A model generated the notes under the pieces. That model saw only the letters and a program-made list of their open reading frames with translations. It was not told the origin of the DNA and searched no databases. Positions 20,278 through 63,236 of a stretch of 64,000 bases of DNA are shown one piece after another. Within the stretch, counting starts at the first letter, position 1; every line of letters begins with the position of its first letter. Source of the stretch: Pegethrix bostrychoides GSE-TBD4-15B (GTDB lineage Bacteria > Cyanobacteriota > Cyanobacteriia > Elainellales > Elainellaceae); assembly GCA_019359155.1 (NCBI GenBank), contig JAHHHV010000073.1:1-64000 (forward strand), in the 5' to 3' direction. The translations under genes were made by a program, and so were the position numbers.

Positions 20278-20745
20278 ATGAGCTTGAGAAATCGCCTGTT
20301 CTGGATTGCTGCTGTGATTGGCTTAGTTGCAGACCAAGTTACAAAGCTCATGATTGTCCGCAACTTTGAGCTCAATCAAACGCTGCCGATTTGGGAAGGC
20401 ATCTTTCACCTGACCTACGTGACCAACAAGGGAGCTGCTTTTAGCCTATTCAGCGAGCAGGGTGGCTGGCTGCGCTGGCTGTCGCTGGCGGTAAGCCTGG
20501 GGCTAATGGCATTGGGGCTATTTTCTCGCCTCAGCCGATGGGAGCAAGTGGGCTATGGCTGCATCCTGGCTGGCGCTTTGGGCAACGGGATTGACCGCTT
20601 CTTTTTTGGCCAGGTTGTAGATTTTCTCGACTTTCGGGTGATTCGCTTCCCGGTGTTTAATCTGGCCGATATTTCCATCAACGTCGGCATTGTCTGTTTA
20701 CTGGTTGCGGCCTTAAAACAACCTGCCTCGGCAAACGGCAGATAG
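20278..20745 (+). CDS. lspA: Lipoprotein signal peptidase (signal peptidase II)
   Basis: 155-residue inner-membrane aspartyl protease that cleaves lipoprotein signal peptides after lipidation. Motifs: ADQVTK near the N-terminus, TNKGAAFSLF, the first catalytic Asp in GNGIDRFFFG with VVDFLDF, and the second in FNLADISI. Four transmembrane helices fit the family. ATG at 20278 has GGAAAG upstream; GTG at 20272 is in frame but less likely. The window contains several lipoproteins that would be its substrates (PsbP-like, Ycf48, the methyltransferase). Confidence 0.96.
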   Translation: MSLRNRLFWIAAVIGLVADQVTKLMIVRNFELNQTLPIWEGIFHLTYVTNKGAAFSLFSEQGGWLRWLSLAVSLGLMALGLFSRLSRWEQVGYGCILAGALGNGIDRFFFGQVVDFLDFRVIRFPVFNLADISINVGIVCLLVAALKQPASANGR

Positions 20746-58529: not shown

Positions 58530-59873
58530 TTGGATTTGGATCAAGTAGAGAACCACTATGCGAAATGGGACGGCATGCACAAAGCCGCCCCCCAACCGAC
58601 TCTTGTACTTGCTGATGCAATTGCCTTAATTGTAGGGCTAGTAATTGGCGCAGGTATTTTTGAAACTCCTGCTCTAGTTGCCGCTAATACTGGAACAACT
58701 AGCGGTGTAATTCAGCTCTGGCTAATTGGCGGCGCTGTGTCGCTACTGGGAGCCTTGTGCTATGCCGAACTCGCGACGGCCTATCCTCATGTCGGCGGTA
58801 ACTATTATTATCTGAAGCGCGCCTTTGGGTCACCAGTTGCGGTTTTGTTTGCCTGGGCACGCATGACTGTGATTCAAACCGGATCGATTGCGCTGTTAGC
58901 ATTTGTCTTCGGCGACTATGCCTCTCAGCTACTTCCTCTGGGTGGCTACTCACCGGCGATCTATGCCGCAGCTGCCATCGCTCTGCTTACCCTGCTGAAC
59001 ATCATTGGACTCCGCCAGAGTAAACGCCTCCAGAACTGGCTAGCCGTATGTCTCGTTTTGGGTTTACTGCTGGTCATCTGCGTGGGATTAACTGCCCCTG
59101 CTGCTGCTAATCCCCCAGTTGTTCCATCAGAGTCTAGCCCTTCTTGGGGATTAGGGTTAGTCTTTGTGTTGCTATCCTATGGTGGCTGGAATGAGGCCGC
59201 CTACATTTCTGCGGAAATTCAAAATCCGCAGCGGAATATTGTGCGATCGCTCTTATGGAGCATTGGCATCATTACAGGGCTGTACCTGCTAATCAATCTG
59301 GCATATCTGCAGGGGCTAGGAGTGGCGAGCATGGCTAACTCGCAGGCTGTTGCGGCAGATTTATTGCGGCAAAGCTGGGGGGAGTCGGGAGCAGCGTTTG
59401 TCAGTTTACTGGTTGTGATTGCCACGCTAGGGTCAATTAACGCCACCATTTTCACAGGCGCGCGCACTAGCTTTGCCTTGGGGCAAGACGTAGCTCCCCT
59501 CCGCTGGTTAGGTCATTGGCATCCGCATCCTAGCTCACCGACCACAGCTTATTTACTGCAAGGTGGGATTGCACTGGCGCTGATTGGACTGGGAACATTC
59601 ACCCGCAGAGGGTTCGAGACAATGGTGGATTACACTGCGCCTATTTTCTGGCTCTTCTTTTTGCTCAGCACCCTATCCTTGATTGTCTTACGTATCCAAG
59701 AGCCTGATCGACCTCGCCCATTTCGCGTACCCCTATACCCACTAGTCCCGCTTCTGTTTTGCGCGATCTGCGGATACTTACTCTATTCCAGTCTGATCTT
59801 TACAGGCATTGGCGCAATTATCGGCATCGTTGTTGTTCTACTGGGTATTCCCTTTATCCGTCATAGTAGATAG
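58530..59873 (+). CDS. APC superfamily amino-acid permease
   Basis: 447-residue membrane transporter with about twelve hydrophobic helices. The first helix shows the APC signature VGLVIGAGIFETPA, followed by SLLGALCYAELATAYPHVGGNYYYLKRAFG, which is typical of amino acid/polyamine permeases (unwound helix 1 GAGIF). Start TTG 58530 follows AAGGTAGGT; ATG 58575 is an alternative. Substrate is not known. It lies between a foreign-looking gap and the lipoprotein methyltransferase. Confidence 0.88.
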   Translation: MDLDQVENHYAKWDGMHKAAPQPTLVLADAIALIVGLVIGAGIFETPALVAANTGTTSGVIQLWLIGGAVSLLGALCYAELATAYPHVGGNYYYLKRAFGSPVAVLFAWARMTVIQTGSIALLAFVFGDYASQLLPLGGYSPAIYAAAAIALLTLLNIIGLRQSKRLQNWLAVCLVLGLLLVICVGLTAPAAANPPVVPSESSPSWGLGLVFVLLSYGGWNEAAYISAEIQNPQRNIVRSLLWSIGIITGLYLLINLAYLQGLGVASMANSQAVAADLLRQSWGESGAAFVSLLVVIATLGSINATIFTGARTSFALGQDVAPLRWLGHWHPHPSSPTTAYLLQGGIALALIGLGTFTRRGFETMVDYTAPIFWLFFLLSTLSLIVLRIQEPDRPRPFRVPLYPLVPLLFCAICGYLLYSSLIFTGIGAIIGIVVVLLGIPFIRHSR

Positions 59874-59962
59874 TCTACTGCGGTAAATAATCGGTTACAT
59901 TGCGAATGAACTCTTGCATAGAGTTTGTCACAGACAATACACCAATACCATCGAAGGAGATA

Positions 59963-60655
59963 ATGATCATGCAACTCAAATCTATTAGGCGATCGATGTT
60001 TATGGGCATTAGCATGCTCAGTCTGGCTGGTCTGGCTGGGATCGGCTGCACCCAACTGCGTAACCCTGAGACGGCGACGCCAAGCTCAACTCCGAATTCA
60101 ACTATTAGCTCCCAGCCGAATTCTGCTGCTAATCAAGCTCAAGCGACTCCTGATCCGATCACAGAAGCGCCTAGCCGCGAACCCGATGTCATCTATGTAC
60201 CTACGCCTGTGCCTGTAGTGAATGAAATGTTGCGGCTGGCCAATGTAACCGCAGATGATATCGTCTACGATTTGGGCAGCGGTGATGGGCGAATTGTGAT
60301 TGCGGCGGCGCAACAGCGCGGCGCACGTGGAATTGGCATTGATATCAATCCAGAACGGATTCAAGAAGCCAATCAGAATGCTCAAACAGCAGGGGTGAGT
60401 GATCAGGTAGAGTTTCGTCAGCAGGATTTGTTTCAAACCGACTTCAGCGAAGCCACCGTTGTCACGCTTTATCTGCTACCAGAACTCAACGTGAAGCTAC
60501 GCCCTAAACTGCTGCGTGAATTGCAGCCCGGTACGCGAATTGTGTCCCACGCATTCGATATGGGCGATTGGGAACCTGAACAGGTCGTTGAAGTGGATGG
60601 CAAAACCGTCTACTACTGGGTCGTGCCTGAGAATCCCCCTGACAATCTGCTCTAA
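59963..60655 (+). CDS. Lipoprotein-anchored class I SAM-dependent methyltransferase
   Basis: About 230-residue protein. The N-terminus is a lipoprotein signal (MFMGISMLSLAGLAGIGC) and a Ser/Thr/Pro/Asn/Gln-rich linker of about 45 residues. The catalytic domain has VPTPVPVVNEML then the SAM loop YDLGSGDGRIVIAAA, GIDINPER, and the DLF motif. This is close to the FAM173/ATPSCKMT-like lysine-methyltransferase group, which are membrane-anchored enzymes. AAGGAG lies upstream of ATG 59963/59969. The signal suggests export, which is odd for a SAM enzyme. Confidence 0.82.
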   Translation: MIMQLKSIRRSMFMGISMLSLAGLAGIGCTQLRNPETATPSSTPNSTISSQPNSAANQAQATPDPITEAPSREPDVIYVPTPVPVVNEMLRLANVTADDIVYDLGSGDGRIVIAAAQQRGARGIGIDINPERIQEANQNAQTAGVSDQVEFRQQDLFQTDFSEATVVTLYLLPELNVKLRPKLLRELQPGTRIVSHAFDMGDWEPEQVVEVDGKTVYYWVVPENPPDNLL

Positions 60656-60874: not shown

Positions 60875-61972
60875 ATGTCTTTTTCTGACTATCGGAGCTA
60901 CAGCCGACGTAAACTGCTCCAGCTTGCAGGACTAGCCGCAGGCAGCACGGCGGTTTCTGTAGCTTGCAATGCAGTCACCACTCCATCAGAAGAGATTTCC
61001 GCTCAGTCTAGCCCAGGCAGCAGCCCAGACAGCGCTGCCGCTCCAGAAACAGCAGTGCCTGCCGGATCAGGAGTCAGCCGTGTGGTGCTGGTTCGCAGCG
61101 AAGACCGAGTGGCCGGCACCCGCAAGGCCATTGACTTGCTCCAACCTGAAGGCATTACCGGACAGACTGTATTTCTCAAGCCCAACTACAACACCGCTGA
61201 CCCAGCGCCCGCCTCTACCGACACGGCGCTGCTCGAAGCGCTCGTGCAGGAATTACAGAACGCAGGCGCTGGACAAATCACAGTAGGCGACCGCTCCGGC
61301 ATGGCAGAGACGCGGCAGGCCATGCAGACTAAAGGTGTATTTGAGCTGGCAGACCGCTATGGGCTGAATGCGATTGTCCTGGATGAACTCAGCCAAGCCG
61401 ACTGGCAGTATTTTCCACCCGCAGGCACTCACTGGTCGAAAGGGTTTGCCTTTGCCCGTCCGGCTCTGCAAGCTGAAGCTGTGGTGAATACCTGCTGCCT
61501 CAAGACCCATCGCTTTGGCGGTCACTTTACGCTCTCGCTGAAGAATACTGTCGGGCTAGTTGCTAAATATGTGCCAGGTGACTCCTACAACTACATGGGG
61601 GAGCTGCATTCCTCGCCGCATCAGCGCCTGATGATTGCTGAAGCCAACAAAGTCTATAGTCCAGCGCTGGTGCTGTTAGATGGAGTCGAAGCGTTTGTCA
61701 ACGGCGGGCCGGAAGCCGGAGATGTTGCAAAACCGGGCGTGATTTTAGCCGGAACAGACCGGGTAGCTGTAGATGTGGTGGCGATTGGGATCCTGCGCTC
61801 ATTGGGAACATCTTCAACTGTGGCTCAAGGCTCAGTTTGGGACTTGGAGCAGATCAAACGCGCTGTTGAACTGGGCTTGGGTGCGGGCAGTCCGGATCAA
61901 ATCGAGATTGTTACCGCAGATAGCGCGAGTCAAACAACTGCTGATCAAATCCGTCCGCTGATTGTGGCCTGA
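60875..61972 (+). CDS. DUF362 family protein, Tat lipoprotein-like
   Basis: 365-residue protein. A twin-arginine motif (SRRKLLQLAGL) and lipobox-like SVAC suggest export by Tat and lipid attachment. The DUF362 domain has VVLVRSEDR, FLKPNYNTADPAP, ITVGDRSGM, and TCCLKTHRFGGHFTLSLKN. DUF362 proteins are often annotated as ferredoxin-like or iron-sulfur related, but here no CxxCxxCxxxC ferredoxin cluster is present, only a CC pair. ATG 60875 with GGGAG upstream. Exact function unknown. Confidence 0.85.
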   Translation: MSFSDYRSYSRRKLLQLAGLAAGSTAVSVACNAVTTPSEEISAQSSPGSSPDSAAAPETAVPAGSGVSRVVLVRSEDRVAGTRKAIDLLQPEGITGQTVFLKPNYNTADPAPASTDTALLEALVQELQNAGAGQITVGDRSGMAETRQAMQTKGVFELADRYGLNAIVLDELSQADWQYFPPAGTHWSKGFAFARPALQAEAVVNTCCLKTHRFGGHFTLSLKNTVGLVAKYVPGDSYNYMGELHSSPHQRLMIAEANKVYSPALVLLDGVEAFVNGGPEAGDVAKPGVILAGTDRVAVDVVAIGILRSLGTSSTVAQGSVWDLEQIKRAVELGLGAGSPDQIEIVTADSASQTTADQIRPLIVA

Positions 61973-62093: not shown

Positions 62094-62441
62094 TCACTCC
62101 ACCTGATAGCGAATTAGGGCTTTTACCTGCTGAGGAGAGAGCTTGAGCTGCTGGGCAATTGCCGCTTCTACTTGGTTCGTATCAACGGCGGAAATCTTAA
62201 ATTTCTGCTGTTTGATCACACTGGTGACGGCCCGAACGCTGACTTGAGAAACGCCGCGATCTTGATCAATTTCGACCTTGATAGACAGCACTTGCACAGA
62301 GAGGGATGGCGATGGCTCAATTTGCAAAGCGGGCGTGATCGGATTCGATCGATTGAGCAACTGCTGGCCAATCAAGCTGCTGAGCGCCCAAAACAGCAGT
62401 CCCAACAGCGGCAGCGCTAGCCAATCCAGTCCTAATCGCAT
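62094..62441 (-). CDS. Small membrane-anchored protein of unknown function
   Basis: 115 residues: an N-terminal transmembrane helix (LALPLLGLLFWALSSLIG) and a soluble domain (SVQVLSIKVEIDQDRGVSQVSVRAVTSVIK..., KISAVDTNQVEAAIAQQLKL) that looks alpha/beta. No family recognised. Its start codon ATG 62441 is the first CAT of a 13-base tandem array (62438-62489). Divergent from the response-regulator gene; its stop touches the transposase fragment. Confidence 0.65.
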   Translation of the reverse strand: MRLGLDWLALPLLGLLFWALSSLIGQQLLNRSNPITPALQIEPSPSLSVQVLSIKVEIDQDRGVSQVSVRAVTSVIKQQKFKISAVDTNQVEAAIAQQLKLSPQQVKALIRYQVE

Positions 62442-62555: not shown

Positions 62556-63236
62556 ATGGTCATTCTACTGGTAGAAGACGATCTCGAACAGTCGGAACCG
62601 CTACATGCAGCCCTGTCCGGGGCAGGACATATTGTGGATGCGGTAGCAGACGGCGACATGGCGCAGTGGCTGCTGTCTGTGAAAACCTATGACCTGCTGA
62701 TTTTAGACTGGATGCTGCCCAAGATCAGCGGTTTGCAGCTCTGTCGTCAGTACCGACAGACGGGAACGGCACCCGTTTTGATGCTCACCGCCAAAGATAC
62801 CACGGTTGATAAAGTTGCCGGACTAGATGCGGGCGCAGATGATTATCTGGTCAAGCCGGTGGATGTGATCGAGCTACTGGCGCGAGTGCGGGCTTTGGGT
62901 AGACGATCACCACTCTGGAAAGGCGATACTCTGGTGCTCGAAGGCTTACAGCTGCATACTAATCAACTGGCGATTGAGCGCAATCAGCAGCAAACACAGC
63001 TCTCAATGCGGGAATTTCAGCTGATGGAGTATTTGATGCGCCACCCCAATCAACTGCTCTCACGGGATCAAATCGAGCGATCGCTGTGGGAATGGGGCAC
63101 TCAGCCGGAGAGCAACGCCGTATCAACGTTGGTGCGCCGACTGCGGCAGCGGCTCGAATCGGTGGGGGCGAAAGACTGGCTGGAGACCGTGTACGGCATG
63201 GGCTATCGGCTCGCGCCACCCGCGCCAGATGTTTAA
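62556..63236 (+). CDS. OmpR/PhoB-family response regulator
   Basis: 226-residue transcriptional regulator. Receiver domain: LLVEDDLEQS, phosphoacceptor Asp in ILDWMLPKISGLQ near residue 51, Thr in MLTAKDTT, Lys in DYLVKPVD. Winged-helix output domain: LSMREFQLMEYLMRHPNQLLSRDQIE and VSTLVRRLRQRLE, ending YGMGYRLAPP. ATG 62556. The histidine kinase gene overlaps its 3' end by 8 bases. Resembles RppA/NrsR-type redox or metal regulators, but the signal is unknown. Confidence 0.93.
   Translation: MVILLVEDDLEQSEPLHAALSGAGHIVDAVADGDMAQWLLSVKTYDLLILDWMLPKISGLQLCRQYRQTGTAPVLMLTAKDTTVDKVAGLDAGADDYLVKPVDVIELLARVRALGRRSPLWKGDTLVLEGLQLHTNQLAIERNQQQTQLSMREFQLMEYLMRHPNQLLSRDQIERSLWEWGTQPESNAVSTLVRRLRQRLESVGAKDWLETVYGMGYRLAPPAPDV

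Follow-up and report, generated by a model that had tools for sequence, protein, structure and literature searches.

How can an enzyme that depends on SAM carry an export signal? The question is raised by a gene in the window, by which is meant the whole 64,000-nucleotide stretch analysed here (contig JAHHHV010000073.1 of Pegethrix bostrychoides GSE-TBD4-15B). SAM is made in the cytoplasm, and an exported SAM enzyme is thus easily dismissed as the product of a wrong start. The initial annotation took the gene to encode a SAM-dependent methyltransferase with a lipoprotein signal and offered three ways out: SAM reaches the outer compartment, the signal is an uncleaved anchor with the domain left in the cytoplasm, or the enzyme uses another cofactor. 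The export signal and the enzyme both stood; overlooked was the neighbouring LAT-type permease, on which the finding turns.

The open reading frame is present where it had been placed, at 59963..60655 on the forward strand, and ORF, Pfam, PDB and structure comparisons concur in a class I SAM methyltransferase of the aKMT/5bxy type, putatively exported. Translation probably begins at 59969 rather than at 59963 as first annotated, since the Shine-Dalgarno-like AAGGAG at 59954-59959 stands 9 nt before the former and 3 nt before the latter, and since near relatives start with MQL. A signal peptide with lipobox (59963..60049) is followed by a linker rich in S, T, P, Q and A (60050..60184), which has low confidence in the predicted model, and by a Cys-free catalytic domain of residues 75-230 (60185..60652). 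The identification as a SAM-dependent methyltransferase was borne out by a Methyltransf_31 match in Pfam (50.5 bits against a cut-off of 27) and by comparison with the PDB, where the best solved relative is 5bxy (E 4e-60), archaeal aKMT matching at E 2e-42. AlphaFold modelling from 32 family members gives a well-predicted domain and an N-terminus of low confidence; VIA-align superposes the domain on 5bxy, an SAH complex, with Z 29.0 and rmsd 1.0 over 155 residues. The class I features are all there, namely a Rossmann-like fold, a glycine-rich SAM loop and an acidic residue after strand 2, and the loop itself, DLGSGDGR (residues 103-110, 60269-60292), is intact as first described. Across 32 aligned proteins D103-R110, D127 and many further domain residues are invariant, and outside the loop T168, L171, S195, H196 and F198 are both invariant and common to active aKMT.

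The Salinibacter ruber protein 5bxy has 61% identity to the window domain and the same SAM site; its solved chain is the domain only, and it is named an 'RNA methyltransferase', for which no basis was seen. The aKMT of Sulfolobus islandicus (5fa8, 5fad, 5jwj), a protein-lysine methyltransferase, has 47-49% identity, Z 20.2-26.4 and the same motifs, with Z 25-26 for its structures with SAM or SAH. It is a cytoplasmic archaeal enzyme, unlike the apparently exported window protein, which moreover scores 157 bits against a cut-off of 200 for NF041081 (aKMT, NCBIfam) and is thus not an aKMT equivalog. The resemblance first drawn to FAM173/ATPSCKMT held in part: of the characterised proteins, Salinibacter 5bxy and archaeal aKMT stand nearest, and FAM173A and FAM173B (ANTKMT/ATPSCKMT) are, in the available text of PMC9006661, more distant aKMT relatives with an N-terminal hydrophobic segment. 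According to the same text they are mitochondrial proteins held by an uncleaved anchor, with neither a lipobox nor a permease partner described there, and they are likened to the window protein by description only.

The N-terminus, MQLKSIRRSMFMGISMLSLAGLAGIGC-TQ, matches a PROSITE-like lipobox pattern and has the positive n-region, hydrophobic core and Cys-bearing lipobox expected of a bacterial lipoprotein; the residue predicted to be lipidated is C29 (codon 60047-60049), the sole Cys of the protein. G28 and C29 are nearly invariant among the 32 aligned proteins. A survey of 80 named cyanobacterial loci, chosen by their methyltransferase, found N-termini that open with a short basic stretch and run on into a hydrophobic core; almost all have a Cys within a box of LGIAGC type. 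Of the 76 distinct rows passing the signal rule, 73 show the lipobox pattern, compared with 2.9% of N-termini after shuffling; in all 67 rows with exactly one Cys in the whole protein that Cys is at the lipobox. Two more rows failed the rule, L048 having an evident lipobox and L074 a hydrophobic segment without one. Pattern fit, conserved Cys and shuffled control agree that the lipoprotein signal first described is well formed; it is kept in relatives, and neither a failing signal nor a wrong start was found. Other lineages have lipobox-free signal peptides (e.g. L091, L098, L125), and it is because one signal type has been replaced by another that export itself appears to be what is kept. Among 41 LAT-linked proteins the mean net charge is +1.9 before the hydrophobic core, where the signal rule itself demands at least +1, and -1.0 after it, a distribution which would orient the methyltransferase domain outward. 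The same contig also encodes a signal peptidase II (PF01252, E 5.8e-40), at window positions 20311-20715. On these sequence grounds the methyltransferase is in all likelihood exported and tethered. The same genome holds a second lipoprotein-type copy (L002 1477-2136, C33) without a permease; before it lie a histidine kinase fragment and an outer-membrane-like protein. Extra copies of another kind occur in G048, G067 and G103 (L106, L172 and L173); their N-terminus is Tat-like and contains RRR, their SAM loop bears a Cys, and they have no permease linkage.

Directly before the methyltransferase on the same strand, at 58530..59873, lies the gene for its conserved partner, a LAT/SLC7-type APC permease; its TTG start at 58530 is uncertain, permease alignments mostly beginning at residue 17-22. 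The short gap of 59874..59962 contains the AAGGAG already mentioned and no terminator-like site, in a promoter and terminator scan that found no more than it did in shuffled sequence. The permease matches PF13520 (AA_permease_2) with 183.2 bits against a cut-off of 27 and has the APC fold, its closest match being y+LAT1 bound to Lys (Z 47.1). With 207.8 bits against a cut-off of 701.8 for TIGR00911 (L-type amino acid transporter) it is LAT-like and outside that subfamily. LAT/SLC7 light chains (y+LAT1, LAT1, BasC) have 27-31% identity to it over 391-423 residues and Z 35-47; its clade differs from them in an invariant Glu222 at the position of LAT1 Tyr259 and in the conserved exported-methyltransferase partner.

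Permease relatives adjoin the methyltransferase in 72 of the 80 named loci, or 73 of 81 counting the window. A permease-only search of 194 genomes of the class removes the bias of loci selected by methyltransferase: at E<=1e-80 it gave 41 LAT matches, spread over 36 genomes. A methyltransferase stands within 1.2 kb of 39 of the matches, always on the same strand, and 37 of these 39 are directly upstream of it with gaps of 40-242 bp. A larger survey of 388 cyanobacterial genomes, the first 194 included, placed 68 of 78 LAT matches (E<=1e-70) beside a methyltransferase. The remaining ten comprise the one in G118, discussed below; three at contig ends (L219, L244, L259), uninformative on linkage; three members of the clade without an adjoining methyltransferase (the second copy in G206, and those in G226 and G227, two genomes that have exported lipoprotein methyltransferase copies elsewhere); and three distant paralogues of 38-40% identity (G048, G067, G103), which served as a control and are unlinked to a methyltransferase. 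The second permease copy of G206 adjoins a methylenetetrahydrofolate reductase gene (PF02219; L198 5683-6621), whose product belongs to methyl-group supply. Judged from this conserved arrangement, methyltransferase and LAT very probably form a functional pair, and it is well supported at the sequence level that many cyanobacteria would export a SAM methyltransferase nearly always encoded beside this particular amino-acid transporter.

Other neighbours do not recur in this way. The DUF362 protein encoded downstream at 60875-61972, whose twin-arginine motif and subsequent Cys lipobox (SRRKLLQLAGLAAGSTAVSVAC) make it a possible Tat lipoprotein, was considered as a partner and rejected, other loci having no DUF362 match at E<=1e-8. 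An OmpR-type response regulator is encoded at 62556-63236; 26 of 81 loci have a homologue near the pair, and 23 a histidine kinase. The gene for a small membrane-type protein with no Pfam match lies at 62094-62441 on the reverse strand and has homologues close to the pair in 14 of the 81 loci. An SDR gene is found near the pair in 35 of 81 loci and an invertase-like gene in 30. The two-component system, SDR and invertase-like genes, each present in a minority of loci, were taken as local synteny and not as parts of the module.

The association also holds between whole genomes. Classification was reached for 73 of the 76 genomes with a methyltransferase match in the 194-genome search, three being unclassified; an exported methyltransferase of the family is present in 35 of 36 LAT genomes and in 17 of 158 LAT-less ones, these 17 indicating that a LAT of the clade is not always needed. 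The one exception among the LAT genomes, G118, has no methyltransferase of the family at E<=1e-10. Its LAT stands tail to tail with the gene for a protein-L-isoaspartate methyltransferase (PCMT) with a signal-like N-terminus (MHVSLVIFLCIVLVILPAWA), a different methyltransferase family from the aKMT type and seen beside LAT in this one case; with the aKMT-type enzyme it has only SAM/SAH in common. PCMT occurs in only 18 of the 194 genomes, and the other 17 are none of them beside a LAT, with no signal-like start seen in 16 and an ambiguous one in L291. The case is single, was noticed after the fact and is a convergent arrangement, not an operon, and the PCMT may belong instead with the DUF1614 gene behind it. 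Among 343 plasmid records of PCMT, the four regions opened had no adjoining permease except a short 'peptide ABC transporter permease' ORF (L237).

Export and permease linkage go together at the level of single proteins as well. Among 105 N-termini from the survey loci, 42 permease-linked and 63 unlinked, a signal is present in 42/42 of the linked methyltransferases and 33/63 of the unlinked (29 have none, and one, L120, near a contig end, is unclassifiable), so that signal-less relatives are never LAT-linked. The signal rule was overridden by eye in eight rows, all in LAT-unlinked loci, seven being taken as exported (L172, L173, L106, L185, L102, L187, L188) and L169 as without signal; nine further matching loci gave no separate row because they are duplicates or do not have the loop motif used (L095, L097, L108, L132, L160, L167, L178, L194, L196). 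The domain is Cys-free in 42/42 linked proteins, 26/33 exported unlinked ones and 1/29 signal-less ones, 25 of these 29 having a Cys within the SAM loop itself (DLGCGDG type). This distribution fits an oxidising compartment. The tree requires only about two changes of export state, hence one or two events, and for that reason the Cys contrast is not statistically independent evidence.

The pair also recurs on plasmids, alphaproteobacterial ones among them. A search of 72,556 plasmids with the methyltransferase gave five records, and one with LAT (E<=1e-50) gave four, all among those five: two near-identical Leptolyngbya boryana plasmids, one of Agrobacterium salinitolerans and one of Chelatococcus. 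The pair is adjacent in all three records opened, the fourth being the near-identical L. boryana record with matching coordinates. The methyltransferase of the fifth plasmid, from Gloeothece verrucosa, has a signal-like N-terminus, and next to it no permease is listed. A clear signal peptide opens the Agrobacterium methyltransferase. The two alphaproteobacterial proteins (L201 2857-3684, L202 2881-3699) are extended at the C-terminus by about 75 residues and contain two closely spaced Cys, CxxWC, which could form a disulfide. Viral contigs searched with the Agrobacterium protein gave no relative.

What the permease might carry is suggested by its pocket. Glu222 (codon 59193-59195, motif YGGWxE) is invariant in 144/144 LAT proteins of >=47% identity and present in 1/8 of the more distant APC proteins aligned. 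It aligns with LAT1 Tyr259, in an alignment with xCT, y+LAT and BasC to which LAT1 was registered through the shared GW motif, and the hydroxyl of that tyrosine contacts the substrate side chain, according to the available text of PMC12444478. An acid at this position would suit a substrate with a positively charged side chain: SAM, and equally Lys or Arg. No LAT is known to carry SAM.

These observations can be drawn together in a two-gene module for SAM-dependent methylation outside the cytoplasm, with LAT supplying the SAM and protein lysines receiving the methyl groups, a scheme to which we would give an even chance of being right as a whole. Its first two steps are well supported: the methyltransferase would be exported and tethered as a lipoprotein, or in other lineages set free once signal peptidase I has cut, which would place the working domain outside the cytoplasm, and it would function together with the adjoining LAT-type permease. 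In the third, LAT would export SAM in exchange for SAH (or methionine), the fuel thereby reaching the enzyme and the inhibitory product SAH being removed; structural relatives of the permease are amino-acid exchangers, and a role as SAM/SAH exchanger is nearly as credible as its absence. The fourth step is the weakest: kinship with aKMT suggests that lysine side chains of periplasmic, outer-membrane or thylakoid-lumen proteins might be methylated, and protein lysine is, on that analogy, a tentative choice of target. Among the three options originally offered, arrival of SAM in the compartment is favoured. Use of another cofactor is disfavoured by the intact SAM site and by near relatives solved with SAM or SAH.

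The most serious competitor, though unlikely, accepts the functional pair and gives LAT a different cargo, the acceptor of the methyl group or the methylated product (such as lysine, methyl-lysine or some other amino acid), SAM arriving by another route or by leakage. That LAT relatives carry amino acids, with Lys bound in the closest fold match, that an aKMT-like enzyme acts on lysine and that 17 LAT-less genomes hold exported methyltransferases would all agree with it, but the known aKMT substrates in the available text of PMC4639711 and PMC9006661 are proteins and not free amino acids, and the PCMT of G118, beside the same LAT, points to SAM/SAH as the common element. A lipoprotein next to a permease is also the layout of an uptake system, and the methyltransferase fold, its SAM site intact, might serve as a SAM/SAH receptor that hands SAM to LAT for scavenging from outside, catalysis being unnecessary; against this the many invariant residues beyond the SAM loop are common to active aKMT, and the domain lacks any additional part by which to dock on a permease, which makes such a receptor improbable.

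Slightly more improbable is the uncleaved anchor, an option already raised in the initial annotation, whereby a cytoplasmic domain would methylate membrane proteins such as the permease. It has a precedent in the FAM173 proteins, anchored by an uncleaved N-terminal segment (available text of PMC9006661), but is disfavoured by the charge pattern around the core, the retained lipobox Cys, the lipobox-free signals that replace it elsewhere and the Cys-free domains. A spurious signal due to a wrong start, with an ordinary cytoplasmic enzyme behind it, could appeal to the signal-less relatives (29 of the 105 rows); it is very hard to reconcile with a signal kept in the named loci in 76 distinct rows by rule and two by eye, and accompanying LAT in every linked case, and we consider it highly improbable.

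The preferred reading thus remains methylation outside the cytoplasm with SAM brought by LAT. Both protein families are already known; a literature search by title or opening of the abstract, with most subscription journals outside its range, found no exported SAM methyltransferase paired with a permease. In its general form, bacterial extracytoplasmic SAM-dependent protein methylation fuelled by a dedicated, co-encoded SAM/SAH exchanger of the LAT family that serves methyltransferases of different families, the proposal is a tentative one. With the pair present across many families of cyanobacteria and on plasmids of proteobacteria, a SAM route to the periplasm becomes testable with two genes, and, if the reading is true, it would predict an unseen layer of protein modification, either on the cell surface or in the lumen of the thylakoids.
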